Source: Lentisphaera araneosa HTCC2155
Lineage (GTDB): Bacteria > Verrucomicrobiota > Lentisphaeria > Lentisphaerales > Lentisphaeraceae
Assembly (NCBI RefSeq): GCF_000170755.1
Contig: NZ_ABCK01000001.1
Coordinates: 62,001-126,000, forward strand
Direction of reading: 5' to 3'
DNA length: 64,000 bases
The notes below the pieces were generated by a model, which had not been told where the DNA came from, searched no databases, and saw only the letters and a program-made list of their open reading frames with translations. The first letter of the stretch is position 1. Every line of letters begins with the position of its first letter. Below are positions 1 to 19,889 of this stretch, piece after piece. Both the position numbers and the translations under genes were made by a program.

Positions 1-1080
1 GCGCGAGGTTTTAGAGATGGTGTAGCAAAGTCAAAAGTACTTGCCGATCAATTTGAATTAGAAATGATTGAAATGATTGATGAACATTATAATAATCCTT
101 CAGTAGTAGTGTGGGTGATCTTCAATGAAGCTTGGGGACAATACGATACACCGCGTCTGACGGACTTAGCAAGGAAGCAAGATTCGACTCGCCTACTTGT
201 TAGTGGTAGTGGGTGGTTTCTACCTAAAGACTGCGGAGATATTATTGATAGACACGCTTATAAAAAGGCAGTGCCTGTGTCTCCAGATAAAAATCGGATT
301 GGAACTTTAGGCGAATTCGGGGGCCTTGGTTATGTAGTGCCAGGACATCTATGGATACCTAATCAAACGACATCATCTGTCTATGGTACATGTACTGATC
401 AACGTCACTATGAAACACTCTATTTAGATCTATGGCGCGATGTTTTTAAAGCTGATAAACAAGTTGGTATGTCCGCCGCAATTTACACACAATTAACTGA
501 CGTAGAGGCTGAAGTCAATGGCTTAATTACTTATGACCGGAAAATAATTAAATCGGATGTTGAGCTGTTTCGCAAAGCAGTACAGGAAAGGTCTCTTCCC
601 TCCAAGCCAAAAGTGAATATGCTACTACCGACATCTAGAGATATGGCTCAAGAATGGTTTTACACAACAGATAAACCCAGCGAAGACTGGATTCTACCTG
701 AGATGGACTTTACTATGTGGAAAAAAGGGAAGGGAGTTTTCGGTCATAAAGTCCATAGAAATCCCGCGATTGAAATAGGGACGGAATGGAAAAAGATGGA
801 TCTTTGGGTCGCTAGAAAATTTGAATTAAATGAAAAGCTTCAAAGACCAGTTCTCCGTATTGCTTATGATGATAATGCAACAGTCTACATAAATGGAGTC
901 AAAGCATTTGTACTTAAAAGTGGTAATAACACCAGGTATATAGATTTGCCATTTCCTGCTAATGCCATAGAGGCCTTGAAAGTAGGAAAGAATATTATTT
1001 CTATTCATGTGGATAATGCGAAAGGTAATTTCAGTCAATATATCGATGCTGGAATAGGTGATGAAACTCTTGAATGGTAA
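1..1080 (+). CDS. Glycoside hydrolase family 2-type enzyme, C-terminal part (5' end outside window)
   Basis: The frame is open from base 1, so this is the 3' end of a longer gene; the first ATG at 64 is internal. The fragment begins inside the TIM barrel. NEAWGQ, with Glu about visible residue 43, matches the GH2 acid/base motif, and GEFGG about residue 105 matches the nucleophile region of beta-galactosidase/glucuronidase-like enzymes. The last 130 residues look like a beta-sandwich sugar-binding domain (DDNATVYINGVKAF). GH2 enzymes are exo-acting retaining glycosidases; the substrate cannot be read from this fragment. It lies 30 bp upstream of a GH32 gene on the same strand and probably belongs to the same operon. 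The family is well supported; specificity is unknown. Confidence 0.85.
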   Translation, partial: ARGFRDGVAKSKVLADQFELEMIEMIDEHYNNPSVVVWVIFNEAWGQYDTPRLTDLARKQDSTRLLVSGSGWFLPKDCGDIIDRHAYKKAVPVSPDKNRIGTLGEFGGLGYVVPGHLWIPNQTTSSVYGTCTDQRHYETLYLDLWRDVFKADKQVGMSAAIYTQLTDVEAEVNGLITYDRKIIKSDVELFRKAVQERSLPSKPKVNMLLPTSRDMAQEWFYTTDKPSEDWILPEMDFTMWKKGKGVFGHKVHRNPAIEIGTEWKKMDLWVARKFELNEKLQRPVLRIAYDDNATVYINGVKAFVLKSGNNTRYIDLPFPANAIEALKVGKNIISIHVDNAKGNFSQYIDAGIGDETLEW

Positions 1081-1110
1081 AAACAGAACGATAAACAGGA
1101 TGGTTTTAAT

Positions 1111-2685
1111 ATGAAATTCAATCATTTTTTTGGAGCGCTATTATTTCTTTCTATGTCATGCTTTAGCTTATTTGGACAAGCACAGAAAAAGCTGCTGACT
1201 CAGGATGTTTTTGATTCAAAGTGGCGTACTTTTCAGTCTTATGAAGATACCGATTACAAGCAAAAAATGCGTCCTCAGTTTCATTTTACATCTAAGAAAA
1301 ATTGGCTTAATGACCCCAATGGCTTAGTCTACCTTGATGGTGAATGGCACATGTTTTTTCAACATAATTCATTGAGAAATGGTGATGGAGGGAAAGTATG
1401 GGGCCATGCAGTAAGTGAGGATTTGATTTCGTGGAGGCAACTCCCACATGCGATTTTACCTTATAAAAATACTAAAGGAAAATCTGGGGTTATTTGGTCT
1501 GGCAGTGCTGTGGTTGATCATAATAATAGCCTTAAGAAGCAAGTAGGTAAGACTCAAACTCTCGTCGCTTTTTTTACTCATACAACAAGTCCAATGCAAC
1601 AGTGTGCAGCTTATAGTACTGACAAAGGTAGAACTTTTACTTTAATTAATGGTGGTGATCCAGTTGTGCCTAACCAGGGGGTTTGGAAAGGAGAGAGAGA
1701 TCCTAAAGTTTTTTGGCATGAAAAAACTCAGAAATGGGTTATGGCCGTCATTATTGCAGGACCAGACAAATTAATACGCATATGGAATTCAGACAATTTA
1801 GTAAACTGGAAAAGAGTGGGGGATTTTAGCCGTGACTTTGTTGAATGCTTTGATATGTATGAGCTTGCCGTAGACGGGAATCCTCAAAAGAAAAAGTGGG
1901 TATGCAATGATGCCGCCTTCTACTACCAGATAGGAAGCTTTGATGGAACTAATTTCTCAAGTGATAATAAAATGCTCTCAGGAGACTGGGGCGGTCGACG
2001 CTTTTTTAAAGCTTTCTATGCAGGTCAAACATTTAACAACAGTCCAGATGGTAAAGTCTACCAAATAGCCTGGATGAAAGATGCCAGCAAGAAAAATCTG
2101 TTTAAACGTTTTGGTTTACCTTTTACTCAACAAATGAGTTTCCCTTGTGAACTAAGTTTAAAATCCACTGCAGAAGGCGAGCGTCTTTTTCGCTGGCCCG
2201 TTGATCAAATAAAGAAACTCTATGCAAAATCACATTTATTAGAGGACATTTCTTCGCTTAGCAAAGTTAATTCAGAGCTTAATAAGATAAGTGCAGACCT
2301 CCTAGATGTATCAATAAGCTTTGAGCCAAAAGAAAATGAAATAATGACCTTTACTGTAAGAGGTCTTGAAATTGTATATGGTAATAAAACAAGGTTTCCA
2401 GATAAGGGGGGCAAAATGGTGGAGGTTAAAAGCATAGAGTTTAGAAATATGGAAAATGATAATGAGACAATAAAAATACCCGCACCTACAATTCATGGTC
2501 AAGTTAACTTACGTATCCTACTTGATCGTATGTCTATAGAATTATTCGTGAATAAAGGAGCATATGCAGCCGCGAGCTATTGCCTACCCAAAACTGATAA
2601 AATTTCAATTAAGAGTTCGAATGGAGAGCGTGTGAAAATCAATTCTATTTTAATTAATGAATTAAATTCAATCTGGAGAAACTAG
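1111..2685 (+). CDS. Secreted GH32 beta-fructosidase (levanase/invertase type)
   Basis: 524 residues with an N-terminal signal peptide (hydrophobic to about residue 22, FGQAQ). The GH32 five-bladed propeller shows all three catalytic signatures: WLNDPNG with nucleophile Asp68, RDP with transition-state stabiliser Asp197, and ECFD with acid/base Glu245. The C-terminal beta-sandwich ends with the usual LRILLDRMSIELFVN segment. It should hydrolyse terminal or internal beta-fructosyl bonds of sucrose, levan or inulin outside the cytoplasm. AGGA lies upstream of the ATG. The next gene starts 7 bp after the stop, so the two are probably co-transcribed. It resembles the genes at 16157 and 19890 more than its direct neighbour, which has a long N-terminal extension. 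Confidence 0.93.
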   Translation: MKFNHFFGALLFLSMSCFSLFGQAQKKLLTQDVFDSKWRTFQSYEDTDYKQKMRPQFHFTSKKNWLNDPNGLVYLDGEWHMFFQHNSLRNGDGGKVWGHAVSEDLISWRQLPHAILPYKNTKGKSGVIWSGSAVVDHNNSLKKQVGKTQTLVAFFTHTTSPMQQCAAYSTDKGRTFTLINGGDPVVPNQGVWKGERDPKVFWHEKTQKWVMAVIIAGPDKLIRIWNSDNLVNWKRVGDFSRDFVECFDMYELAVDGNPQKKKWVCNDAAFYYQIGSFDGTNFSSDNKMLSGDWGGRRFFKAFYAGQTFNNSPDGKVYQIAWMKDASKKNLFKRFGLPFTQQMSFPCELSLKSTAEGERLFRWPVDQIKKLYAKSHLLEDISSLSKVNSELNKISADLLDVSISFEPKENEIMTFTVRGLEIVYGNKTRFPDKGGKMVEVKSIEFRNMENDNETIKIPAPTIHGQVNLRILLDRMSIELFVNKGAYAAASYCLPKTDKISIKSSNGERVKINSILINELNSIWRN

Positions 2686-2692
2686 AAATAAA

Positions 2693-4942
2693 ATGGAACT
2701 GCTTCACTATACCTTTACCCTTATGGTTCATACTATTGGAAAATCCTTAGTTGAGAAATCTTCTAATATGTTTCAGGTACTTGTGGTACTTTGTGTAGTG
2801 GTCTGTTGCAATCTCACCAGTGCCTTCGCTCAAGAAGCCGACATACTCATTGCAGACTTTGAAGAGAGTAGTTTTAGCAAGTGGCAACAAGAAGGATATG
2901 CGTTCAGAAAGGGACCAGCCAATATAAAGTATAAAAACACATACAAAATTAAAGGTTTTCGGGGTAAGGGTTTTGCAAGTTCTTATATGGATAAAAGCTT
3001 GAAGCATGTGGGCAGCCTAAAGAGTCCTGAATTTCTTGTTGAACGAGACTACATAAATTTACTTCTTGGGGGTTCTCCATTTGTGAATGATGCTGGAGTA
3101 AAACTTCTAGTTGACGGAAAAGAAGTTCTGAGCATAGCGGCAGTTAAAGGGTATAATCTTAACGAAACTAGTATTCCGGTCAAAAAATATAAAGGACAAA
3201 AAGCCCAAATACTAATCTACGATAAAAGCCCTGGCTATTGGGGACTTATTCTTGTAGACCATATTGTTCAAAGCAATAAGAAAATTGGCTATGAGCCCTT
3301 GGTGCTACCGATAAATATTACTGAGAAATTATTGATTTTTCCTGTGGCTAAATTTGGTACTGCTAGACAAATGGACATTAAAGTCGATGATGTAATAATT
3401 CATTCGATATCAGTTTGTTTGGCGATGAAAGATGAGGATGTCGCTTGGTGGGGATACCTAGATATGAGCGATATGATTGGCAAAAAAGCAATTATTGCCC
3501 TTGAGGCAAAAGTTAATAGTAATATTCAAAAAATGATTCAGTGTTCTGCCGAACCCCGCTTATTACAGCTGCAACATTTCGATAAATTCCGACCTCAATT
3601 TCACTTCTCACAACTTCAAGGGTGGAATAATGATCCCAATGGTATGGTCTACTACGACGGGAAATACCATCTTTTTTGGCAATGTAATCCTCTTGGGACA
3701 AGCTGGGGGAATATGTATTGGGGGCATGCATCAAGTCCTGATTTGATTGAATGGACGGAACATAAGCGTGCCTTACGTTCTGGAGGTGGCAAAGGGCTTC
3801 CATTAAATATGCGTCATGATTCGATGGCAACGGGGGCGTGTTTTTCCGGAAGTGGAAATATTGATCATAATAACTCACTCGGTTTAAATACGGCAGAGAA
3901 GAAAACTTTACTGCTCTTTAATTCAGATATGAACGCCGGTATCGCAATCTTTTCTTCTCAAGATGGAATCAACTTTAAACGTTGGATGAAACAATACCCC
4001 CTCGGACTTAGTGGGCGTGATGCAAAGGTGGTTTATCATAAACCTACTCAGCAATGGATTGCAGTGAGTTGCCTTGATAATAAGCAGCATGGTAAGCATT
4101 ATCCCATTTTTACTAGCAAGGATTTACAAAGTTGGGAATTAAAACAAAATTTTCTAGATATGCACGAATGCCCTGAGTTTTTAGAGTTAGCCATAGATGG
4201 CGACAAGAATAATAAAAAATGGGTTTTAATGGAGGCTAATGGTAAATATTTTGTAGGAGATTTTAATGGGGAGAAATTTATTCCAGACACTAAGGAGAAG
4301 CAGACTACAATAATTTCAGGAAGCTGTTATGCCGGACAATGTTTCAGTAATACTCCCGATGGCCGTGCTGTGTATATTGCTTGGGCAGGATTTGATACTG
4401 ATAATACAGTTTTTAATCAAGGCTTTACAATTCCAATGGACTTATGCCTGAAAACTGTTGATGGTGGCAAGGTTCATTTATATGCTAATCCTGTATATGA
4501 AATAAAAAAACTCCGCAGAAAAATAGAAATTGATACGAGTACAATAGAACTTAATAAGAATGTAAAGGTGTACGCTCTAGCTCTAGCTGGAGACCTTTAT
4601 GATATTTGTCTGAGTATAGAAAAAAAAGGTTCACCAAAAAGTTTCTCACTAAAGATTCAAAATATGGAAATGACCTATGATTTTGAATCACAGCGTTTTG
4701 ATGATCATCATGTTCCTATGAAAGGTGGTAAAGTTACCCTTAGGATTCTAGTAGATCGCCCCACAATTGAGTTCTTTATGGCTGATGGTTATGCATATAA
4801 ATTACATGAAAGAAAAAACCTTTCTGGTAGTCACTTAAACAAAATTACTTTTAGTGCAGAAGTTTCAGGGACTGATAAAGTCCTAATAAATAACTTTAAA
4901 GTGTATCCAATGAAATCAATTTTGAAAAAGAATGGAGAATAA
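2693..4942 (+). CDS. Secreted GH32 fructan hydrolase with N-terminal beta-sandwich modules
   Basis: 749 residues from the first ATG. A start at 2768 (Met26) would put a classical signal peptide first (MFQVLVVLCVVVCCNLTSAFA) and is at least as likely; neither start has a strong ribosome site. After the signal come about 160 residues of a jelly-roll-like module (LIADFEESSFSKW to the VDHI segment), then about 90 residues resembling the DUF4980-type domain before the GH32 propeller (WWGYLDMS). The catalytic domain has WNNDPNG (Asp314), GRDAK in place of RDP (Asp443 kept, Pro to Ala), and HECPEF (Glu492). The catalytic acids are present, so it should be active on fructans; the extra modules may bind polysaccharide. 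It overlaps or nearly touches the esterase gene downstream. Confidence 0.9.
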   Translation: MELLHYTFTLMVHTIGKSLVEKSSNMFQVLVVLCVVVCCNLTSAFAQEADILIADFEESSFSKWQQEGYAFRKGPANIKYKNTYKIKGFRGKGFASSYMDKSLKHVGSLKSPEFLVERDYINLLLGGSPFVNDAGVKLLVDGKEVLSIAAVKGYNLNETSIPVKKYKGQKAQILIYDKSPGYWGLILVDHIVQSNKKIGYEPLVLPINITEKLLIFPVAKFGTARQMDIKVDDVIIHSISVCLAMKDEDVAWWGYLDMSDMIGKKAIIALEAKVNSNIQKMIQCSAEPRLLQLQHFDKFRPQFHFSQLQGWNNDPNGMVYYDGKYHLFWQCNPLGTSWGNMYWGHASSPDLIEWTEHKRALRSGGGKGLPLNMRHDSMATGACFSGSGNIDHNNSLGLNTAEKKTLLLFNSDMNAGIAIFSSQDGINFKRWMKQYPLGLSGRDAKVVYHKPTQQWIAVSCLDNKQHGKHYPIFTSKDLQSWELKQNFLDMHECPEFLELAIDGDKNNKKWVLMEANGKYFVGDFNGEKFIPDTKEKQTTIISGSCYAGQCFSNTPDGRAVYIAWAGFDTDNTVFNQGFTIPMDLCLKTVDGGKVHLYANPVYEIKKLRRKIEIDTSTIELNKNVKVYALALAGDLYDICLSIEKKGSPKSFSLKIQNMEMTYDFESQRFDDHHVPMKGGKVTLRILVDRPTIEFFMADGYAYKLHERKNLSGSHLNKITFSAEVSGTDKVLINNFKVYPMKSILKKNGE

Positions 4943-4946
4943 AAAG

Positions 4947-6521
4947 ATGCAGACAAAACGTAAAACATCTCTATTATCACTCTTGCTGGTGTTTATGACT
5001 GCATCACTCCAAGCAGAAGTTAAAACCCCAGCTTTCTTTAATGACCATATGGTTCTCCAAAGAAATATTTCTGTTCCTATATGGGGTTGGGCTAGTCCTG
5101 GTGAATTGATAAATGTAAGTTTTGGGGATCAAAGTATAAGTACCAAGGCTGACAAAGATGGTAAGTGGCTGCTTAAGCTTAAGCCTATGGAGGCCAATCT
5201 AGAAGGGCAGACACTTACAATTGCCAATCACTCTATTAAAAATGTCTTAGTAGGGGAAGTTTGGATTTGTTCTGGCCAGTCCAATATGCAGTGGCGCCTT
5301 AGCGGTGCATTCAATTCTAAAGAAGAAATAGCGGCGGCCAAATTCCCCGCCATTAGACAACTAAACCTAACAAGAACGGCGGCCAACCTTCCACGTACGG
5401 ATGTTAAAGGTGAATGGACTGTCTGCTCTCCAGAAACAGCCAAAGATTATACCGCTGTCGGCTACTTTTTTGCTCGTTCTCTTTATAAAAGTCTAAAGAT
5501 TCCTATTGGTATTATTGATGCAAGCTGGGGTGGAACCGGAATTGAACCCTGGATACCTGAACTTGGTTTTAATATGGTTGCAGAACTGGAAAAAGATAAA
5601 ATAGAACTCCATAAAATTTTACCTGTGAATGATAAGAATAAACAGAAATGGAATGACTATTTAGATGAATTAGAAAGTTGGCTACCTGGAGCTGAAAAAC
5701 GTGTTTCTCAGGGAAGCCTCCCACTTAATATGCCGGACCGACCAGATAGTGGAATGCCAGTTACACATCACGGCATGACTAAAATATTCAATTCCATGAT
5801 ACACCCAATTATTCCCTATGGTGTTCGGGGAGTGGTATGGTATCAGGGCGAGTCAAGTTGGGGCCAGGGTGATTATTACTTCTTTAAGAAAAAAGCCTTG
5901 ATCGAGAGTTGGCGTGAACTTTGGGGACAAGGAGAATTCCCCTTTTACACAGTACAATTAGCTAATCTTCATAAATTTAATGAAAAAGCGGAAGGGGGGG
6001 ATGGTTATGCAAAAATTCGTGAAGCTCAAAAGCGTTCCTTAGAACTTCCTAACACAGGACTTGCAGTCACGTACGATATTGGCAACCCCGTCAATATTCA
6101 CCCTAAAAATAAACAGGATGTGGGCAAGCGTCTCTCATTGTGGGCACTTGCCAAAGAATATGGAAGAAAGGAACTTGTCTATAGTGGACCTCTCTTCAAA
6201 AAGCTCCATAATAGCGGGGCTGAAGCGATTGTTCATTTTAGCCATATAGGTAGTGGTCTTATGGTGGGTGAGAAAAAGGGGCTAGAACCTGTAAAGAAAA
6301 CATCAACAGCTCTTAAAGGTTTTGCGATAGCCGGTGAAGATCAAAAATGGTATTGGGCAAATGCTAGAATCAGTGCAGATGGGAAATCAGTAATCGTCAG
6401 TTCCGATAAAGTCAAAAAAGTTATGGCGGTTCGCTATGCTTACCGATGGAACCCAATTCACAGCAACCTTTATAACCGTGAAGGCCTCCCCGCAGCGCCT
6501 TTTAAATCGGATAATTGGTAA
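4947..6521 (+). CDS. Secreted sialate O-acetylesterase-like SGNH esterase
   Basis: A longer reading from 4932 is open, but GGAG at 4935-4938 sits 8 bases before the ATG at 4947, which then opens a clean signal peptide (MQTKRKTSLLSLLL to SLQA). The SASA/SGNH fold is clear: NDHMVLQR near the N-terminus, catalytic Ser in GQSNM (about residue 112), the WYQGES block, and the Asp/His pair in DIGNPVNIHP. Such enzymes remove acetyl groups from sugars; despite the name, many PVC and Bacteroidetes homologues act on plant or algal glycans. Placed behind two fructosidases, it probably de-acetylates the same polysaccharide. The SASA copy at 6531 is a diverged paralogue. Confidence 0.9.
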   Translation: MQTKRKTSLLSLLLVFMTASLQAEVKTPAFFNDHMVLQRNISVPIWGWASPGELINVSFGDQSISTKADKDGKWLLKLKPMEANLEGQTLTIANHSIKNVLVGEVWICSGQSNMQWRLSGAFNSKEEIAAAKFPAIRQLNLTRTAANLPRTDVKGEWTVCSPETAKDYTAVGYFFARSLYKSLKIPIGIIDASWGGTGIEPWIPELGFNMVAELEKDKIELHKILPVNDKNKQKWNDYLDELESWLPGAEKRVSQGSLPLNMPDRPDSGMPVTHHGMTKIFNSMIHPIIPYGVRGVVWYQGESSWGQGDYYFFKKKALIESWRELWGQGEFPFYTVQLANLHKFNEKAEGGDGYAKIREAQKRSLELPNTGLAVTYDIGNPVNIHPKNKQDVGKRLSLWALAKEYGRKELVYSGPLFKKLHNSGAEAIVHFSHIGSGLMVGEKKGLEPVKKTSTALKGFAIAGEDQKWYWANARISADGKSVIVSSDKVKKVMAVRYAYRWNPIHSNLYNREGLPAAPFKSDNW

Positions 6522-6530
6522 GGAAAAACT

Positions 6531-8744
6531 ATGCCTAAAAAAATAACCATGATGAAAATAATTACTTTCTTTCTAACACTATTTATATTTTCGACACATG
6601 CAGAAGTTAAACTGCCGGAAATTTTCTCAAATAACATGGTTATCCAAAGGAATAAAGAAATACCTATTTGGGGGACCGCCTTACCCAATGAACAAATCAA
6701 ACTTAGCTTTGCGACTCAAGAAGTCGTCACTACTGCGGATGAATACGGATGCTGGAGCGTAAAGTTTAAAGCTCTAGGGGCCAATTCTAAAGCGCAGGTT
6801 TTAACCGTAAATCACTTAAGGATACAAAACGTACTCATAGGTGAGGTTTGGCTCTGTGCAGGAATGGCGAGTATGGATTATCCTCTACGTAAATCACTGA
6901 AGGGCGCCAATGAAATTAAAAATGCAGATAAATCACTAATTCGATTGGCCTCTATAGCTAAACAACAATCTCCTCTACCCAATAAAAATGTGGAAGTGAA
7001 GTGGAAGACCGCAGATTCAGAGCATATTAAAGAATTTTCTGGGCTGGCGTATTTTTTTGGTAAAAAACTTCATCAAGAACTAGAAGTGCCTATTGGTATA
7101 ATTCAGGCAAGCCAGGGGGGGGCGCCAATGACTTCCTGGATACCCGCGGAAGGGTATCGCGATAGCCGCCAACTTCAATGGGCAATGAAACAAATATATG
7201 ATGGTAGACCCTCAAGTGAAGTTGGCAGAAAGAACTGGCAGAAATATCTAGACGATATGAAACTATGGCTTCCTAAAGCGCGTGCGGCACTGGCCAAAAA
7301 TCAAACTCCTATCGACCGTCCGGAAATCCCTTCTGAGCTTTGGATTACCAATATTGTACCTACTAAAATGTTCAATGGTATGATTCACCCATTGATTCCA
7401 TTTTCTATACGTGGTGTAATCTGGGACCAAGGAAATGTCAGGAAGCCGAAGGAATTATTTCATCTTCAAAAAGCACTCATAACTAGCTGGCGTCAGCTTT
7501 GGAACGAGAGGGAACTGCCCTTTTACTTTGTGGAACCATTAGTCAACACTGAGCCAAAGCATCTAAAGGTTGAAGTTCAGAAAGCCATTAAAAAGTGTTT
7601 GTCAATCAAAAATACCGCTATGGCAATAAGTGCAGACCTCCAAACAGCAAATCCTCAAGCTCCACAAAATAAGCGAGATCTTGCACTGCGTCTAGCTGAT
7701 ATAGCTCTTCAAAACGATTACCAAAATGAAATAAAGTCCATAAATCCCAAGCTTATTCAAGTCGTCATAGGCACGGGATCTGAAGGAGTTTATTCAGCTC
7801 GTTTTAACACCGAAAATGGCAGTCTCAGTAAAGCGACTCTTCTTTTTCAAAAACCAGGAACGGTACTCGTCAAGACATCTAGTAGAGGGCTTTTGTATAG
7901 CGCAGGTAATACTAAGGAAGGGGGGATTCTTAAATCTTTTCTAGAAAATAAAAAGACAAGTGAAATTCGAGATTTGCCAAAAGACCCTTGTTATATAGCT
8001 CTAGATAAAAGCTTAAAATTTGCGATTACCGCAAATATTCATGGGAGCTCAATTTCATCATTTTTACTCAAAGAAGATGGTTCTTTGGATAAGCTTGTTC
8101 AGAATCTGGAAATCAAAACTCCCCAAAAAGGCTTTGCGCCTCATTGTGTTATACCGTCTCCGGACAATAAATACCTTTTTGTAGCTGATATAGGAGGAGG
8201 GAGGATTTGCCGAGTGAACTTCAATGAAGACGACGGCACAATGATTTATGATGGTGATATATCTTCAAATAACTTCAATGGCCCCAGGCACATGATTTTT
8301 GGGCCTGAAGGTAAGTTTTTATATCTCCTAAATCAAATGGGAGGGGCTGTAACAGTCTTTAAGTATGAGAGTCAAGACGGTCACCTTCAAGAGATTCAGC
8401 ATATTTCTTGCCTAGCGAAAAATTTTCAAGGAAATAATCATTCTGCAGAAATAGCTATTCACCCAAGTGGAGACTTCCTTTATTGTACGAATCGTGGACC
8501 GGACAATATCTGCCTTTTTAAAAGAGATAAAGGCAATGGGACTTTAAAGTTTATTGAAACCGTTTCAAGCGGCGGTAAGACACCCGTAAGTTTCATTATT
8601 TCCCCTGATGGAAAGTACCTGCTATCTTGCAATATTCAGTCGAATAATCTCTCGCGCTTTAGTATTGATTTGAAAAATGGAATCATAACAGAGTTCGGAG
8701 AGAAGATTTCTGTGCCATCTCCGGTATCATTAAGCTTCCGGTAA
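6531..8744 (+). CDS. Inactive SASA-like esterase fused to a lactonase-type beta-propeller
   Basis: 737 residues with AAGGA before the ATG and a signal peptide ending STHA. Residues 25-400 align along their whole length with the esterase encoded at 4947, but GQSNM has become GMASM (Ser to Ala113), WYQGES has become WDQGNV, and the DxxxxxxxHP segment lacks His. The SGNH triad is therefore broken. Residues about 408-737 form a seven-bladed propeller of the YbhE/6-phosphogluconolactonase-like 'lactonase' family (repeated FxPDGKxLY-like blades, for example IHPSGDFLYCTNRG and SPDGKYLLSCN). The first half is probably a sugar-binding pseudoenzyme; whether the propeller is a lactonase or a binding scaffold cannot be told. 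It is the last gene of the operon, 9 bp after the preceding stop. Confidence 0.85.
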   Translation: MPKKITMMKIITFFLTLFIFSTHAEVKLPEIFSNNMVIQRNKEIPIWGTALPNEQIKLSFATQEVVTTADEYGCWSVKFKALGANSKAQVLTVNHLRIQNVLIGEVWLCAGMASMDYPLRKSLKGANEIKNADKSLIRLASIAKQQSPLPNKNVEVKWKTADSEHIKEFSGLAYFFGKKLHQELEVPIGIIQASQGGAPMTSWIPAEGYRDSRQLQWAMKQIYDGRPSSEVGRKNWQKYLDDMKLWLPKARAALAKNQTPIDRPEIPSELWITNIVPTKMFNGMIHPLIPFSIRGVIWDQGNVRKPKELFHLQKALITSWRQLWNERELPFYFVEPLVNTEPKHLKVEVQKAIKKCLSIKNTAMAISADLQTANPQAPQNKRDLALRLADIALQNDYQNEIKSINPKLIQVVIGTGSEGVYSARFNTENGSLSKATLLFQKPGTVLVKTSSRGLLYSAGNTKEGGILKSFLENKKTSEIRDLPKDPCYIALDKSLKFAITANIHGSSISSFLLKEDGSLDKLVQNLEIKTPQKGFAPHCVIPSPDNKYLFVADIGGGRICRVNFNEDDGTMIYDGDISSNNFNGPRHMIFGPEGKFLYLLNQMGGAVTVFKYESQDGHLQEIQHISCLAKNFQGNNHSAEIAIHPSGDFLYCTNRGPDNICLFKRDKGNGTLKFIETVSSGGKTPVSFIISPDGKYLLSCNIQSNNLSRFSIDLKNGIITEFGEKISVPSPVSLSFR

Positions 8745-9990: not shown

Positions 9991-12984
9991 ATGGATGATA
10001 GAATACGATTTAACTGTGTCGGTTGTGGAATTGAACTTGAAGCTCCTAAAGAAATAGTGGGAGTTCATGTTCGTTGTGATCAATGTGATACGAAACAAGC
10101 AGTATTAGATAAAAATTCTGAATCATTAAATAAAGATCAAGCGACTGTTCTAAGTCAAAAAAAGACTAAGAAAAGTAGTTTCAAAGTTTCGAAGACGAGT
10201 AGTAAGCGAAAAAGAAAGAATAAACAAAAAAATAATGTAGTAATAATCTCAATTTTATTAACACTGATTTTAGCTGCTACAAGTATTTTGTTAATACTAC
10301 GATTAAAAACCCCTTTAGAACGTAAACCCTTAGAAGTAAGTTTTTCAGGAAAAGCTGTTTTTGATGAAGAACATGTCGTGAAAGCTGAAGTAGATATTCA
10401 ATTGAAGCCCTCAAGAATAGAAGAGATTGAACTGATAAGTTCATCAGAGCCCTCAAGAATAGAAGAGATTGATCTGATAAGTTCATCAGAGCCCTCAAGA
10501 ATAAAAGAGATTGAACTGATAAGTTCATCAGAGCCCTCAAGAATAGAAGAGATTGATCTGATAAGTTCATCTGAAGTATCAAGTATACAAGTAAAAGATC
10601 AGTCAACAATAAAGCTCTCAAGTTCAATAAAGCACTTTATTAAAAAACGTTGCCAGGACTGCCATGGAGAAATAAAACAAAAAGGTGACCAACGCTTTGA
10701 TAAACTTCCAGATGTACTGAATAAAGCTCATAGCATTCAATTGTTACAAGATATTTTGGATACCGTTAATTTAAGCGAAATGCCACCAGAAGATGAGCCG
10801 GATATACCACATGAAGAGTTGACCAACTTTATAGATGAACTGACACAAACGATTAGTAAAGCAAAAGATTATACTCAAAATAGAGGTCTTAATCCGCCCA
10901 TACGATTTTTAAATAAAAGAGAATTGAAACTAACTTATCGTAACCTTTTAGGTGTTAATACAAGTCTAGGTTCTATTCCCGATGCACCAGAAATCAGTCG
11001 ATTCGATACATTAGCTCAAGATCAGCTGTTTAGTGAAGTTCATTGGCAAGCATCCTTTAATGTTGCCAAAGCCCATTTGGAAAAAGCATTGCTAAGGGAA
11101 AAAAATAGTAAGGTCATTAAAATCAAGTATGAATCAGAAACTAACAAGATTAAAGATTTTCAAAAGAAGATTAATCAATGGCCAGGCTTAATAATTAAGA
11201 ATACAAAAAAACTGGAGACGGAAACAGTTACTCAGCGACGGGGAAATTTAAACAACCTCATAAAAAGTCTAGGAAATGAGCTTGAGTTTGCCAAGCAGAA
11301 TATTAATAATCCACTCTTTAAAACAGGAGCGATTTATTCTAAAAGCACTCCTATTATGACCTTGTTAGGCAAGAATATTTACAATTTTGATAAAATGAAA
11401 GAAGGTCGATACCGACTTAAAATCCGTTGTGGAACCATACATACTAAGCCAGATCAACAATCATTTATAAGTACCGCATCTCATAAACAATTAATTAATC
11501 CAGAATTTCAACCTTATGAAAACTATTATCAAGAAGTAACAGGCACAGTAAAAAATCCTGAGGTTTTATTTTTTAACTGGAATTTTGGGGGGCAGAGTAG
11601 TGGCCGTGAATTAAGGATTGATAGCGATGCGGAAATATGGATAGATTGGATTGAGCTTGAAGGTCCACTGAAGTCACAATATCTAGCTCAAGCAGAAATA
11701 GAACTATTGAGTCAGTATAGTGAATGGGATATAGCAAAGGCCGTTAAAATCGTTAAAGACTTTGCTTTTAAAGCATACCGAGGTCGCAATATAAGTTTCG
11801 CACAACTTGAGCAAATAAAAGATCATTTACTCAGCCAATCTAAATTAGAGGCAGATCCTCAGGATGCACTTGTCGATGTGCTGGCAGCGATACTCTCTTC
11901 TCCAGAGTTCATCTATATCGTACCCGAACTTAATAAAAGTAATAAAAACTTAACGGCATTGAGCTTTGTGAATAAGCTTTCTTACTTTTTGCTAAGTTCT
12001 CAACCTGATTTACAACTTCAAAAAATGGTGGCCGCAAACCAGAGTCTAAGTAAGAGAGCCGTCTTTAAAGAATGTGACAGAATACTGGACTCAGAAAAAA
12101 TCTTGCCTTTTATTGATTCCTTTGTTTTTCAGTGGTTAGAACTCTCCCGCTTTATAGCTTTGAATCCTACGATTCACGCACAAAGAACGAATCTCATAAA
12201 GTGGCCACGAAAGAAGTTTTCTATGCTGCGTGAATCAACAGAAGCGATGAGATTTATTATTAAAAATAACCGTCCAATAACAGATTTACTGAATCCGGAC
12301 TATTACTATATAAACAATACGTTAGCAAAATACTATGGTTTACCAATTTCAAATAAAAAAGGCTTTTCCGCTCGACCTTTAGTGAAATCTAATCCACGGG
12401 GAGGTATCTCAAGCCATGCATCATTTCTCATGATGACTTCACGAGGGAATAGGACTTCACCTGTAGAGCGTGGAGTTTACATTATGAGGAATTTACTCTT
12501 TAATCCACCTGCACCTGCACCACCTAATGTACCAGATTTAACCGCGTCAATCAAAAAAACAATAGAAGAAAGATTTGCTTTGAAAAAACTTAATCTATCT
12601 AATAGTCGAGAGCTTATGTTTTTTCATACAAAACAGGCTCAGTGTAACTCTTGTCACCGGAGCTTTGATCCACTGGGTTTTGTTCTTGAGGGTTTTGATC
12701 ATTATGGTTCTTGGCAAGGAGAGGAAATCAATGTCAAAAGTAAGCTTCCTTCAGGCCTTGAACTCGATGGTGTGAAAGATTTGAAAAAGTATCTTGTGAG
12801 TCGAGAAGAACAATTTGTCAAAGGTTTTATAAAAGCATTAATGAGCTACGCGATTCATCGACCAATCAGCATTGTCGACCAAGCTGAAATTGATGCGATT
12901 TATAATGCGAATAAATCTTCAAACTTTAAAATTCGCAATATTATCAAGTCGATAGTGGCATCTAAAACTTTTAGAGGATCCTGA
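9991..12984 (+). CDS. Membrane-anchored DUF1592-family planctomycete cytochrome with zinc-ribbon N-terminus
   Basis: 997 residues. Cys9, Cys12, Cys29 and Cys32 form a zinc-ribbon-like pair of CxxC motifs, followed by a very basic stretch and one membrane helix at about 81-105. Residues 140-195 are four 14-residue repeats (PSRIEEIELISSSE). A heme site CQDCH (221-225) belongs to the PSCyt cytochrome domain. Then come the DUF1587, DUF1595, DUF1592, DUF1588 (RTSPVERGVYIMRN) and DUF1585 blocks, with a second CxxCH, CNSCH, at about 885. The predicted topology is a cytoplasmic zinc ribbon with a large extracytoplasmic heme part. The family's biochemical function is unknown. The DUF1552 gene follows 3 bp after the stop, the pairing typical of planctomycetes. 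The zinc-ribbon/TM front looks like an addition; homologues normally start with a signal peptide. Confidence 0.9.
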   Translation: MDDRIRFNCVGCGIELEAPKEIVGVHVRCDQCDTKQAVLDKNSESLNKDQATVLSQKKTKKSSFKVSKTSSKRKRKNKQKNNVVIISILLTLILAATSILLILRLKTPLERKPLEVSFSGKAVFDEEHVVKAEVDIQLKPSRIEEIELISSSEPSRIEEIDLISSSEPSRIKEIELISSSEPSRIEEIDLISSSEVSSIQVKDQSTIKLSSSIKHFIKKRCQDCHGEIKQKGDQRFDKLPDVLNKAHSIQLLQDILDTVNLSEMPPEDEPDIPHEELTNFIDELTQTISKAKDYTQNRGLNPPIRFLNKRELKLTYRNLLGVNTSLGSIPDAPEISRFDTLAQDQLFSEVHWQASFNVAKAHLEKALLREKNSKVIKIKYESETNKIKDFQKKINQWPGLIIKNTKKLETETVTQRRGNLNNLIKSLGNELEFAKQNINNPLFKTGAIYSKSTPIMTLLGKNIYNFDKMKEGRYRLKIRCGTIHTKPDQQSFISTASHKQLINPEFQPYENYYQEVTGTVKNPEVLFFNWNFGGQSSGRELRIDSDAEIWIDWIELEGPLKSQYLAQAEIELLSQYSEWDIAKAVKIVKDFAFKAYRGRNISFAQLEQIKDHLLSQSKLEADPQDALVDVLAAILSSPEFIYIVPELNKSNKNLTALSFVNKLSYFLLSSQPDLQLQKMVAANQSLSKRAVFKECDRILDSEKILPFIDSFVFQWLELSRFIALNPTIHAQRTNLIKWPRKKFSMLRESTEAMRFIIKNNRPITDLLNPDYYYINNTLAKYYGLPISNKKGFSARPLVKSNPRGGISSHASFLMMTSRGNRTSPVERGVYIMRNLLFNPPAPAPPNVPDLTASIKKTIEERFALKKLNLSNSRELMFFHTKQAQCNSCHRSFDPLGFVLEGFDHYGSWQGEEINVKSKLPSGLELDGVKDLKKYLVSREEQFVKGFIKALMSYAIHRPISIVDQAEIDAIYNANKSSNFKIRNIIKSIVASKTFRGS
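10408..10575 (+). repeat. Four in-frame 42-bp tandem repeats
   Basis: Four copies of a 42-bp unit encode 14 residues each within the DUF1592 cytochrome, between the membrane helix and the first heme motif. Units 1 and 3 end in IELISSSE and units 2 and 4 in IDLISSSE, which suggests duplication of an 84-bp pair. The acidic, Ser-rich repeat probably acts as a spacer, and its copy number may vary between strains. Confidence 0.92.
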
Positions 12985-12987
12985 ATT

Positions 12988-14304
12988 ATGAGCCTTTCAT
13001 CAAGTATTAATAGAAGAAGTTTAATAAAAGCAGCGGGCCTAGGAGCTCTACTTCCTATTTTTGAGAGTAGTGCCTTAGCTAAATCTCTAACCCCACCTAA
13101 AAGAGTCATCTTTATTGCTTACGGTTATGGGCATTATGATCAGGGATGGTTTCCAAATAATGTCCAACACAAATGGCATTGCAGTAGTCAGGAAAAGGTT
13201 AAAGATTTCGAACTAAGTTCAAGTCTACAAGGTTTAGCGAACTATAAAAATGATGTATCTTTCATAAGTAATTTATCGCCGATTCATGCAAGAAGACCTC
13301 ATGCTGGTTGCGATACATTTTTGACATGTGCTAATGTCGATTCAAACCCTTTGAGGTCTTTTACCAATACCGTATCGGTAGATCAAGTGATTGCCAAAAA
13401 AGTGGGTAAGTACACCCGCATAAGTTCAATGCAGATCAATGGTAGAACAGGTAATCATGATGGTTGGGGAGGTGGAACCTCGATGTCTTGTAATGAAAAT
13501 GGAGAGTTCTTAAATGGTTTGAATAGTTTAAGTGATATATATAAAAGATCATTTGGCGACCCAGACCTTACAGTGAGTGAAAGAAGAAAGCAGCTTAGTA
13601 AGCATAGAAGTTTATTAGTCCTCTCGAATGGAGGGACCAAATCATTGGCCAGGGTTATTTCAAAAGAGGATAAAGAGAGACTTTCACAGTTTACAGATAG
13701 TTTGAGAAGTATTGAAAAAAGAATTCAAAAAGATATGGCCTGGGCAGGTAGACCTTTTCCAAAAACAAAATTTCAGATCCCTTCAGGCGCACTAAATGAA
13801 GAAGAGAAGATCAAAACATCTTTTGATCTGATGACTGAAATTTTTCGTACGGATTTAACTCGTGTCATTAGCTATAGAATGTCATCAATTGGTTTATTGC
13901 AGCAGATGGGCTATCAACAAAATACTCATGCCATGAGTCATTGGGCCAGACATAGTCAAGATTTACAATGTCAGATTGATCGCGATAAAAAATTGGCGGA
14001 ATTATTGGCATATCTCATTAGGCAATTAAAGAACACTAAAGAAATTGATGGTTCAAGTTTGCTAGATAATACGCTTATATTTTTTGGAACTGGCATAAGA
14101 GTTCATCATGTAGTCAAAAACATTCCTATGATAATGGCTGGGGGCGGTGGAGAAGGCATACAACAAGGTAAACACTACACTTATAAAGAGAATGTTACTC
14201 CCCTTGGCAACCTATGGCTTAGTACCATAAAACACTTCGGTATAAACGCTCAGAAATTTGGCGACAGTAACAATGAACTTCACAATATATTCAAATCCGT
14301 TTAA
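12988..14304 (+). CDS. DUF1552 protein with Tat-type signal
   Basis: 438 residues. The N-terminus NRRSLIKAAGLGALLP followed by ALA is a twin-arginine-type export signal. The body matches DUF1552, whose genes in planctomycetes and relatives nearly always follow DUF1592-family cytochrome genes; PKRVIFIAYGYGHYDQGWFPN and the late DNTLIFFGTGIRVHH segments are typical. DUF1552 is distantly like DUF1501 and the alkaline-phosphatase/sulfatase fold, but no activity is established. GAGG lies upstream of the ATG, and the gene starts 3 bp after the cytochrome stop, so the two are one transcription unit that ends at the hairpin at 14348. Confidence 0.92.
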   Translation: MSLSSSINRRSLIKAAGLGALLPIFESSALAKSLTPPKRVIFIAYGYGHYDQGWFPNNVQHKWHCSSQEKVKDFELSSSLQGLANYKNDVSFISNLSPIHARRPHAGCDTFLTCANVDSNPLRSFTNTVSVDQVIAKKVGKYTRISSMQINGRTGNHDGWGGGTSMSCNENGEFLNGLNSLSDIYKRSFGDPDLTVSERRKQLSKHRSLLVLSNGGTKSLARVISKEDKERLSQFTDSLRSIEKRIQKDMAWAGRPFPKTKFQIPSGALNEEEKIKTSFDLMTEIFRTDLTRVISYRMSSIGLLQQMGYQQNTHAMSHWARHSQDLQCQIDRDKKLAELLAYLIRQLKNTKEIDGSSLLDNTLIFFGTGIRVHHVVKNIPMIMAGGGGEGIQQGKHYTYKENVTPLGNLWLSTIKHFGINAQKFGDSNNELHNIFKSV

Positions 14305-16156: not shown

Positions 16157-17773
16157 TTATTCCCATGAGCTTTTTATTTCGTGGATAGTCAGTGAACTGA
16201 TTATGCTTGATTCGCCTTTGAATTGAATGTTTTTATTATTTAAGTCAGAAATTTCTGAATGCGTAAGAACTTGTTGTCCTTGATTGAAGAAGATTTCAAA
16301 GGAACCGCGATCTACTAAAATTCTCATTCCTATATTGGCGCTTGTATTTTTAACATTCGAGAAAGTGAATTGGTCTGGACGTAATTGCCAATTCTTACGA
16401 TTCTTTTGAGCTTCGGGGCGGAGCTTATCCCAATCAAGCTTTTTTATCTGGTTCTTTTGACTTATAAAATTCAACTGGTTTTTTGAGTGGTTATAACTTA
16501 AAATACTACCTCTGATAATGAGCGAGAAGTTTTCCTTAGCGCTAATAGATAGCGTCATGTCAAAACACTCCGGCGAGATCTTTTTTAGGAAGCTGTTGGC
16601 TTGCATCAGAGTTTTGGCAGAATTGAGTTTCCAGCTTTGAGTGTATAAGGATGAGATTTCCTTAACGGGCCAGCGATAAAGCAGTATTTCATTACCGACT
16701 TTTCTTAACTCCAGGGTGGCGGGAAAAGAGAGCTGTTCTGTAAAAGGCATTTTATAGCGCCAGAAGTCAGAATTTTTTAACCAGCCTATAATAACGGCAC
16801 GTCCATCAGGGCTATTATTGAAAGTTTGGGCTGCGTTCCAATGACCAAGTTTGTGATTTTTCACTTTTTGTTCAGCCTTGAAGTTCTTACCATCAAAATG
16901 TCCAATTTCGTAATCGAAGCTGCCGTCGTACATCAACCATTTGTATTGAACTTCATCAGGCATTGAACCGTCGGCGTTGAGTATAGGAAGTTTTAAAAGG
17001 TCAAAGCATTCATGAGCCCACTTTCGTGTCATGTCTGTTTCAAATTCCCAATCGACAAGATTATCAGAACTAAAAACTCTGATTTTCCCACCACTGCTTT
17101 CGCCAAGCCAAAGTAGAGTGACCCACTTTTGACTTTCTTGGTGCCAAAACAGTTTGGGATCTCGTTGAGTCCCTTTAGGATCTACATCACGTCCCTGGAA
17201 GGGGATGATAGGAGCTCCATCATTGAGTAGTTCAAAGGTCCTTCCTCGATCAGTACTATAAGCTATGCCCTGGTAGTAGGCTGTTTCTTTAGGCGGGGTG
17301 AGTGCGCCAAAATTTGGGCGAGTATCTAAGGCGTAAGAATACATAAGAACAAGTGTTTTTGTATTCTTCACCTGTTTGCCTAGTGAATTATTGTGGTCTA
17401 CCACACCTGTACCTGAAAATATATAGCCACTACCATAGGGCGTTATGGCGTGGGGCAGCTGTTCCCAGTGAACCATATCTTTACTTACGGCGTGACCCCA
17501 GGCCATGTTCCCCCAGCCGGTTCCTAGCGGATTATGCTGAAAAAAGAGATGATATTCACCGTCGTAATAGAGCATGCCATTAGGGTCATTAATCCAGTTT
17601 TTCTTAGAAGTGAAATGAAATTTTGGTCGATATGCTTGTTGGTAATCCGTATCTTTGTAGGTGTGAAAATTATCGTATTGATTTTCCGTTGCCGCTAAAG
17701 CAGAGCAACTAAATGCTATAAGTAGACTTAGCAATGAATAAATATGTATGGATTTCATATATTTAATAAGCAT
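16157..17773 (-). CDS. Secreted GH32 beta-fructosidase
   Basis: 538 residues from the ATG at 17773; Met6 at 17758 would begin the signal peptide (MKSIHIYSLLSLLIAFSCSALA) more conventionally, and neither start has a clear ribosome site. GH32 signatures are complete: WINDPNG (Asp63), QRDPKLFW (Asp205) and HECFD (Glu255), and the C-terminal sandwich has MRILVDRGSFEIFFN. Domain plan and sequence are closest to the genes at 1111 and 19890. It is the last of three GH32 genes on the minus strand, separated by 76 bp from the one before it. It is expected to act on fructans outside the cytoplasm. Confidence 0.92.
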   Translation of the reverse strand: MLIKYMKSIHIYSLLSLLIAFSCSALAATENQYDNFHTYKDTDYQQAYRPKFHFTSKKNWINDPNGMLYYDGEYHLFFQHNPLGTGWGNMAWGHAVSKDMVHWEQLPHAITPYGSGYIFSGTGVVDHNNSLGKQVKNTKTLVLMYSYALDTRPNFGALTPPKETAYYQGIAYSTDRGRTFELLNDGAPIIPFQGRDVDPKGTQRDPKLFWHQESQKWVTLLWLGESSGGKIRVFSSDNLVDWEFETDMTRKWAHECFDLLKLPILNADGSMPDEVQYKWLMYDGSFDYEIGHFDGKNFKAEQKVKNHKLGHWNAAQTFNNSPDGRAVIIGWLKNSDFWRYKMPFTEQLSFPATLELRKVGNEILLYRWPVKEISSLYTQSWKLNSAKTLMQANSFLKKISPECFDMTLSISAKENFSLIIRGSILSYNHSKNQLNFISQKNQIKKLDWDKLRPEAQKNRKNWQLRPDQFTFSNVKNTSANIGMRILVDRGSFEIFFNQGQQVLTHSEISDLNNKNIQFKGESSIISSLTIHEIKSSWE

Positions 17774-17849
17774 CTAATCAGCTAATGCTGTCGTGCTATC
17801 CTTTAAATTTATAGTTATGATCAGAGGTATCAGGAATTTGATGTACTGC

Positions 17850-19760
17850 TTACTTATTCCAAATGGATTTAAGCTCATAAACCTTAAGGCTATCAATTTT
17901 AACTGAGCCGCCAGGCGCGGTTGAAATCCTGAATTGTTTGAGGGCTTTACCCGGATCCATGCGCGCATAGTGCTGATAGCTCAGGCCTTCATTGAAAAAT
18001 AAGTTCCACTGAGCTTTATCAATAATAAATCGCATGGTAAATTTCTCGCCCGCTTTGGGTGCGCGCATGATTTTTGCTCCTTTGACTTTACCTGAATTGA
18101 TTTCATATTTCACTTCAGAAGCGCCAAATTTGACTATTATTAGATCTGTCTTAGCAGAGGCCCTTGCAATTAGTTCTACCTCAATGGTGTCCATTAGTGG
18201 ATCGAAAACCAAGTCATTACCTGAAGTTACTTGTTGATTTTTAATGGAAAAAAGCTCTTTGCCTTTTATGTTTTTCATCTCTTTGATGGGGTGGTAGCTA
18301 AGTCTTAAACCTGCCGCGGTACTCATTAATTTAAATTCAACTGGTAGGGTCATACCCTGCTGAAATGGCGGGCGTGGCTTGCTCAAGTGGGGACGGATAC
18401 GTGACCACATAAGGTAAATAGCACGACCATTAGGAGCATTTGAAAATGCCTGGCCGGCTTTCATGTCACCAAACATCCCCTGATGATATGTCTTTTCATC
18501 TGGAGTAAAAGTTTTGCCATCAAAATCGCCGACTTGATACTTCATCATGCCACCAATGAGGACCCACTTCATCTTGTTTTCATCACCATCTACCGGCAGT
18601 TGAAAAAAGTCAGGGCATTCATGAAAATCTTTTATGCTCCAGTCACTGCGCTTTTTCTTTTCTTCATAGTCTTCTGGGAAGTATTTTTCGGTCTTGGAGG
18701 CGAATTCCCAACTTTTTAAATCCTTGCTCGTATAAAAGACCATATGACCCGAGGCCATGGTGGGATCAAGGCCCATGAGGTAGCTCACCATGACCCAACT
18801 TTCGGTCGGCTCATGCCAGAAGGGCTTCGGGTCGCGACCATGACTTTTACCGGCATGGCGGTAGAATTTTTTGAATCTTTCAGGAATCGTTTTTGGCGAT
18901 GGGTGTACAAAAGCGGGGTTCGTCTCTGCCTGAGTGACGAAGCGTTTGCCACCATCAGTTGAAATGGCAATACATTCACCGAGTTGAGTATCTGTATAGG
19001 CAATGATAACTGTTTGCGGGCCACCTGATTTTTGCAGGCCGAGAACATTTTTTACATCAACCGCAGCGCCACCAGAAAAGCATTCACCAAGCGCCATCGA
19101 GGGATGACGGTTTTTATGGCCGCGTCCACCGGATCGTAAGACTCGTGGCCATTCACTACTTTCTTCCCAGTGCAGAAGATCCTTACTGACCGCATGACCC
19201 CAATACATATTTCCCCAGCCCATGTTTATGGCACTATTTTGAAAAGACATATGGTACAGGCCGTCAAGATAGTACAAGCCATTAGGGTCGTTGTTCCACA
19301 TGTGCTTAGGTGTGAAATGGAATTGTGGGCGACCGACTTCCGAGTAGAGTGGCTCTTTAAATTCACCTTGTTGATCACTGAATTTAATAAATTTTAATAA
19401 TTCCTGTTCTCCTTCACTGTTGCAAGCGAGGATAGCGGTCTTCCCGACATACTCACTCATGTCAAGATAACCCCAGGTAAAAGCATCTTTTTCCGGATTG
19501 AGCGGCAAAGTCAAGTATTGTCTATGGAGTATTTGACCATCGACAAACACGCTTAACTGAATTTTGCGGAATTGTTTTTGCTGTGCTTCTTTTGCTAGGC
19601 TTCTATTGGGGAGAATTACCGGTATAAGCATATTTTTTCCCGTAACTTTTACTTCTTGACGAAACTTGGGATAATTCGTCTCCGCCGCAAATAAGCTATT
19701 CGTCATCAGTGTAAAAAATAATAAAATCAGCAGGGCTTTATAGTGTTTTATAGGGGTCAT
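17850..19760 (-). CDS. Secreted GH32 fructan hydrolase with DUF4980-like N-terminal domain
   Basis: 636 residues; AAGGAAA stands before the ATG, and the signal peptide ends at FAA about residue 26. Residues 30-140 form an extra N-terminal beta domain containing WGYLDMSEYVGKTAIL, matching the corresponding part of the enzyme at 2693, in the manner of DUF4980 before GH32. Catalytic motifs are WNNDPNG (Asp158), HGRDPKPFW and HECPDFF. A long insertion (PERFKKFYRHAGKSHG) precedes the RDP motif. The two extended GH32 proteins in this window probably attack a polymer different from the shorter ones, perhaps longer levan chains. It is the middle gene of the minus-strand GH32 cluster. Confidence 0.92.
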   Translation of the reverse strand: MTPIKHYKALLILLFFTLMTNSLFAAETNYPKFRQEVKVTGKNMLIPVILPNRSLAKEAQQKQFRKIQLSVFVDGQILHRQYLTLPLNPEKDAFTWGYLDMSEYVGKTAILACNSEGEQELLKFIKFSDQQGEFKEPLYSEVGRPQFHFTPKHMWNNDPNGLYYLDGLYHMSFQNSAINMGWGNMYWGHAVSKDLLHWEESSEWPRVLRSGGRGHKNRHPSMALGECFSGGAAVDVKNVLGLQKSGGPQTVIIAYTDTQLGECIAISTDGGKRFVTQAETNPAFVHPSPKTIPERFKKFYRHAGKSHGRDPKPFWHEPTESWVMVSYLMGLDPTMASGHMVFYTSKDLKSWEFASKTEKYFPEDYEEKKKRSDWSIKDFHECPDFFQLPVDGDENKMKWVLIGGMMKYQVGDFDGKTFTPDEKTYHQGMFGDMKAGQAFSNAPNGRAIYLMWSRIRPHLSKPRPPFQQGMTLPVEFKLMSTAAGLRLSYHPIKEMKNIKGKELFSIKNQQVTSGNDLVFDPLMDTIEVELIARASAKTDLIIVKFGASEVKYEINSGKVKGAKIMRAPKAGEKFTMRFIIDKAQWNLFFNEGLSYQHYARMDPGKALKQFRISTAPGGSVKIDSLKVYELKSIWNK

Positions 19761-19889
19761 ATTTTTTTCCTTGGCTAAAATAGCGCTATGTTCTAGGTAT
19801 AATTAATCTTGATTAATCAGCTAGTGTTTATTTTAAAAACTAAATTTTTAGATTGTTTTGCTTGTTGAGAATGAGGCCATTAGTGAGCC

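Follow-up and report, generated by a model that had tools for sequence, protein, structure and literature searches.

An SGNH esterase fold without its catalytic triad, fused to an altered lactonase-type propeller, in Lentisphaera araneosa HTCC2155

A single gene of Lentisphaera araneosa HTCC2155 (6531..8744, forward strand; positions refer to the 64,000-nucleotide stretch of DNA analysed, hereafter the window) encodes a protein of 737 amino acids in which a CE20-like SGNH esterase fold that has lost its whole catalytic triad is joined to a seven-bladed lactonase-type propeller with an altered conserved site. Comparison of two species shows purifying selection on both halves. Since both sites are altered, the gene is kept by selection, and it is found in only two related genomes, the product probably has a binding or accessory role, not that of an ordinary enzyme. 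The reading that we favor, to which we assign a probability of about 0.42, is that of an exported accessory protein, its esterase half without catalysis, which binds oligosaccharides or sugar acids and aids the enzymes encoded by the run of genes in which it lies.

The fusion gene is an open reading frame with matches to Pfam SASA and Pfam Lactonase and with a full-length ortholog elsewhere in the genus. Its product looks like an exported protein: residues 1–24 (6531..6602) form a putative signal peptide, called by eye from the sequence, the structure model, and the similar start of the neighboring esterase, with the mature protein starting at EVKLP. The pseudo-esterase half (residues 25–401; 6603..7733) is followed by a short junction (residues 402–407; 7734..7751; pLDDT below 50 in the model at 402–405) and by the propeller (residues 408–737; 7752..8741), which was delimited from Pfam, the model, and structure comparison. 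The SASA match is weak (29.9 bits against a gathering threshold of 24.8; the neighboring esterase scores 57.4), and the Lactonase match (PF10282) reaches 240.2 bits, with residues 415–736 covering profile positions 6–344 of 344. Two NCBIfam 6-phosphogluconolactonase models scored the fusion below their cut-offs (118.2 bits against 370 and 107.9 bits against 500). By sequence, its best solved relatives are the CE20 esterases 9h4u, 9ega, and 7kmm for the first half and the PF10282 lactonases 3scy, 3fgb, 4qrj, and 6igb for the second.

A second genome of the genus (G001) encodes an ortholog that matches the fusion in 631 of 737 residues (86% identity) and has the same junction, so the fusion is not an assembly error, and the expectation that another genome would carry it held. 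The two copies share Ala113, Asp299, Pro375, Ala377, Gln602, and Val686, and within the blocks described below and the Gly motif they differ only at residues 110, 112, 196, 198, and 376.

An AlphaFold2 model of the fusion, made with 34 aligned sequences, had a mean pLDDT of 89.6 and a pTM of 0.60, a value at which the arrangement of the halves with respect to each other is not to be trusted. It has a helix at residues 8–19, within the putative signal peptide, and pLDDT values below 50 for residues 1–22. From residue 408 onward it contains 28 strands, counted as seven four-stranded blades, the last predicted strand (731–736) being taken to close the first blade. The modeled propeller aligns with PpgL (6igb) at a Z score of 45.3 over 330 residues, in agreement with the complete seven-bladed propeller proposed in an earlier sequence-only reading of this DNA. 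More generally, the whole propeller aligns with seven-bladed lactonases of PF10282 (PpgL 6igb, BF1038 3scy, Escherichia coli Pgl/YbhE 1ri6, and Neurospora crassa CMLE 1jof) at Z scores of 38–45; the fusion differs from them in the site residues discussed below and in the esterase fold in front. The modeled esterase half aligns with the CE20 enzyme 7kmm (7kmm_B) at a Z score of 42.5 (rmsd 1.7, 318 aligned), and comparison with dog SIAE puts the SGNH core at about residues 22–402. It has the same SGNH fold as the CE20 enzymes at large (PF03629 SASA; XacXaeA 7kmm, 9h4u, PpCE20_II 9ega, and mammalian SIAE 8f9o), with Z scores of 39–43 and 24–31% identity over the aligned part. Unlike them, it is without the Ser, the His, and the anchor Asp/Asn, and has a propeller in place of the C-terminal segment.

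The losses were located by alignment with 55 relatives, drawn from this genome and from related ones. Block I (6861..6875) reads GMASM in the fusion, and GTASM in its ortholog, against GQSNM in the relatives, so that the nucleophile Ser, present in 54 of the 54 relatives that have a letter there, is replaced by Ala113. In block V (residues 369–378; 7635..7664), the catalytic His of 55 of 55 aligned relatives is replaced by Ala377 and the anchor Asp/Asn by Pro375. The Ser and His losses had been recognized from the sequence alone, and the ortholog lacks the same triad; Pro375 had been overlooked. Block III (7422..7436) reads WDQGN against WYQGE. The earlier claim that WYQGES was lost holds for Tyr, invariant in 55 of 55 aligned relatives and here Asp299, and for Glu, which is absent, but Trp298, Gln300, and Gly301 stay. 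Besides Asp299, both fusions have a second acid at a conserved position, Glu335 instead of a Gln. Among 14 further relatives, picked from the best matches in searches of the class, the phylum, and another phylum, GQSNM is present in all 14 and the anchor and His pattern is recognizable in 13, the other being L123. In the structure 9h4u, which we take to be that of Fl8CE20_II, residues 112, 515, and 513 align with Ala113, Ala377, and Pro375 of the fusion. In Fl8CE20_II, Ser112 and His515 are reported as catalytic and Asp513 as the anchor (PMC12313940). Judged by its sequence, the esterase half is dead, with the whole triad gone and the SGNH fold kept.

These losses are concentrated. Thirty-seven columns reach a conservation of 90% or more among the 55 relatives, and the fusion has lost 7 of the 14 that lie in the three active-site blocks against 2 of the 23 elsewhere (Fisher p = 0.014, with the blocks marked after the losses had been seen); the remaining 21 of the outer 23 are kept, as are Gly197 and Gln300. 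The relatives have lost a median of one such column and the neighboring esterase none of the 37; the highest count, 12, belongs to a frame without the N-terminal part, and the next highest is 3. Beyond the column of residue 399, all 55 relatives extend for 83–331 residues (median 117, and 117 in the neighbor). This C-terminal segment behind block V, a criterion taken from the relatives analysed here and not a known published one, is absent from the fusion, in which the propeller starts a few residues on. The idea that the esterase fold is kept at full length was thus ruled out, although the SGNH core is there.

The propeller was compared with 37 relatives. His538 (8142..8144), Arg586 (8286..8288), and Arg655 (8493..8495) are kept in both fusions and in all 37. 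Gln602 (8334..8336), common to both fusions, replaces a Glu found in 31 of the relatives, the other six having Gln, and Val686 (8586..8588), also common to both, occupies a position that is Arg in 29 of the 31 Glu-type relatives and Trp in six of the six Gln-type ones; the sequence-only reading had missed this altered site. In the six, the Trp stands for the Arg of a PR[NGH]F motif, and the first His of a His-x-His motif is Ala, Lys, or Arg (Ala536 in the fusion). All six are encoded as stand-alone proteins, in five genomes of the family (G000, G001, G002, G004, and G005), and in the propeller tree they form a single clade with the two fusions (support 100/99), within which the fusions branch once L091 has split off (99/96). 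Because the Gln-type change is common to stand-alone relatives, the simplest order puts it before the fusion; the loss of the esterase site was seen only in the fusions.

For CMLE of N. crassa, which has this fold, the catalytic residues are reported as His148, Arg196, Glu212, and Arg274 (PMC1360075). The spacings of 48 and 16 residues in His148–Arg196–Glu212 match those of His538–Arg586–Gln602 exactly, from which we infer that Gln602 is the probable counterpart of Glu212. Counting against this mapping, the same source puts the equivalent Glu of the YbhE homologue Bfl341 at 37 rather than 16 residues beyond the Arg (PMC1360075). The counterpart of Arg274 may be Arg655, which is kept, or the Val686 column, in which the Arg is lost.

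These residues bear on a reading in which the propeller is still an enzyme whose reaction was changed by the replacement of Glu with Gln, and in which the dead esterase half does no more than direct it to acetylated polysaccharide. With His538, Arg586, and Arg655 intact the propeller may still catalyze, and the Gln602 change is common to six stand-alone proteins that are presumably functional on their own; weighing on the other side are the importance for catalysis of Glu212 (PMC1360075), which Gln602 would replace, and two further changes, Val686 and Pro657, which are absent from the six. We consider continued catalysis by the propeller somewhat unlikely. Lactone processing, an earlier suggestion for this protein, is weakened by the position of the propeller in the Gln/Trp clade, with the three kept residues remaining in its favor. 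As a separate observation, a stand-alone Gln-type lactonase gene (L103:8478-9566, L104:9013-10164, and L105:8519-9586) lies about 1.1 kb or less from nqrF (NCBIfam TIGR01941) in all three genomes of the genus, directly behind nqrF in G002.

The fusion gene closes a run of genes on the forward strand that are no more than 30 bases apart or overlap slightly: the C-terminal part of a 751-amino-acid GH2 gene (64..1080; its start lies upstream of the window, at contig position 60825), two GH32 genes (1111..2685 and 2693..4942, the second overlapping the start of the next gene), and an esterase of the same family as the fusion's first half (4932..6521), which keeps all 37 conserved columns and ends 9 bases before the fusion. 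Three more GH32 genes are found at 16157-21455, giving five within 21 kb on both strands (1111-4942 and 16157-21455); that at 2693-4942 is extended at its N-terminus by about 300 residues and reads RDA against RDP in the other four. Elsewhere in the window (40578-47719), two frames on the same strand (823 and 1614 amino acids, both with TTG starts) overlap by 175 bases.

In G001, the esterase–fusion pair, again with a spacing of 9 bases, is conserved together with a downstream pair of genes encoding PSCyt/PSD domains and DUF1552. The latter pair (window 9991-14304) encodes a PSCyt1/PSD protein of 997 amino acids and a DUF1552 protein of 438 and lies beside the fusion in both genomes; five related genomes contain 5 to 54 matches each to the 997-amino-acid gene. 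The GH2-GH32-GH32 block is not directly upstream of the pair in G001, where a gene for 281 amino acids, with a prepilin-like start by eye and no Pfam match, lies between a sigma-70-like gene and the esterase (L020:17893-19355); the block is a variable cassette (window 1-4932 against L020:17893-19355). On the other side of the G001 fusion, two GH32 genes, one GH10 gene, and one sulfatase gene are found within about 13 kb. The esterase ortholog of G001 (L020:16320-17893) is split into two frames at a run of G (6 against 7), a difference that could reflect a sequencing error, phase variation, or disruption of the gene; if real, the frameshift counts against the fusion needing that neighbor.

Paralogous pairs of a pseudoenzyme and an enzyme are a known pattern, and the fusion might be such a partner, regulating or stabilizing the neighboring active esterase, for instance as a heteromer. 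The constant spacing of 9 bases in both genomes is consistent with this, as is the fact that, after the fusion itself, the neighbor is the best match in the genome; the frameshifted neighbor beside an intact and constrained fusion in G001 argues against it, unless the G run contains a sequencing error. The link between the two in trees was also short-lived. A first esterase tree of 53 rows (50 of the 55 relatives, selected by fragment length, plus both fusions and the N-terminal portion of the neighbor in G001) joined them weakly (88/66), and the link was gone in a second, denser tree of 60 rows, for which 14 relatives were added and 7 long-branch or related rows dropped beforehand. A partnership of this kind we regard as improbable, and a recent tandem duplication of the neighbor was rejected on the same trees.

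Between the two copies, dN/dS is 0.134 (95% interval 0.092–0.193) for the esterase half and 0.220 (0.146–0.327) for the propeller, close to the 0.10–0.22 of three other genes of the locus. At a dS of 0.42, no stop and no internal indel is present across the 737 codons of both copies; without selection, about 13 stops would be expected per lineage (minimum 5 in 500 simulations). That the gene is decaying and was kept by chance in two close relatives, as the few genomes that carry it, the alteration of both active sites, and the long stem branch of the fusions in the esterase trees (1.37 and 1.25 changes per site) might suggest, is largely refuted by these intact frames and by dN/dS values well below 1 in both halves, and we hold it to be highly improbable.

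Full-length matches were found in 2 of the 197 class genomes searched, in 2 of the 387 that evenly sample the phylum, and in 2 of the 3 genomes of the genus; frames with esterase matches reach 1256 amino acids in the class and 2058 in the phylum, and the counts are of full-length matches. The third genome of the genus (G002) has no close copy of the downstream 997-amino-acid gene (best match 1.2e-67, 29% identity), which suggests that this genome lacks the entire locus. A search of 388 related genomes with the propeller half gave no further fusion among the matches listed (to about E 3.5e-26); besides the two fusions these included ten frames of more than 500 amino acids, all of which were read, and none of the ten matched the esterase half apart from occasional alignments that ran into roughly its final 35 residues. 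Among the propeller matches listed from 296 genomes that belong to another phylum (centered on a Flavobacterium), with up to three candidates scored per genome, no frame exceeded 521 residues. A contig scan with two N-terminal peptide patterns only gave at least three matches, confined to residues 3–397. On one contig (C35 of G029) esterase and lactonase genes adjoin on opposite strands, and we estimate that one such pair is about what chance would give. As the genome sets overlap and some show only the matches listed, the rarity of the fusion holds for this neighborhood and not for all bacteria. Among the matches listed in a search of titles and abstract starts in the open-access literature, no published description of a SASA–Lactonase fusion was found.

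Two described systems offer partial parallels. In the CtCE2 domain of the cellulase CtCel5C-CE2, an SGNH esterase site is reported to bind glycan without acting on it (PMC2661963), a precedent that makes a glycan-binding SGNH esterase site plausible; CtCE2, as described there, differs in belonging to CE2 and not CE20, in keeping its Ser-His dyad and its esterase activity, and in being fused to a cellulase. A Deinococcus Cu/Zn superoxide dismutase fused to a beta-propeller lactonase likewise joins an enzyme fold to a lactonase-type propeller and is reported from one genus with its role unknown (PMC12362111); its propeller is of the six-bladed SMP-30 type with calcium, and both its halves are described as active.

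We present the accessory role of the Lentisphaera fusion as a hypothesis. The secreted pseudo-esterase with a propeller that had been proposed earlier is supported, with export judged by eye, and glycan binding is a fair inference. After export, the fusion would bind oligosaccharides, perhaps acetylated, or sugar acids in one or both of its old substrate pockets, and it would help the enzymes of the GH2-GH32-GH32-esterase run, perhaps as a holder or sensor of what they release. A connection of the substrate with fructan is conceivable, as the GH32 genes suggest; this is the weakest step of the proposal, and the link is loose because G001 lacks GH2-GH32-GH32 directly upstream and has GH10 and sulfatase genes nearby. 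A stricter version, in which two unrelated enzyme folds are both non-catalytic, with their sites rebuilt for binding, and form one exported receptor or scaffold for products of glycan breakdown that selection maintains in a single genus, is doubtful.

Annotation from domains would label this protein as esterase or lactonase; the findings argue against the former label and weaken the latter. The order of events is open to test, with the propeller change most simply placed first, as stand-alone relatives share it, and the esterase loss seen only in the fusion. Should the fusion indeed bind sugars, it would offer a clear example from nature of two catalytic pockets that were converted to binding and brought together in one protein.
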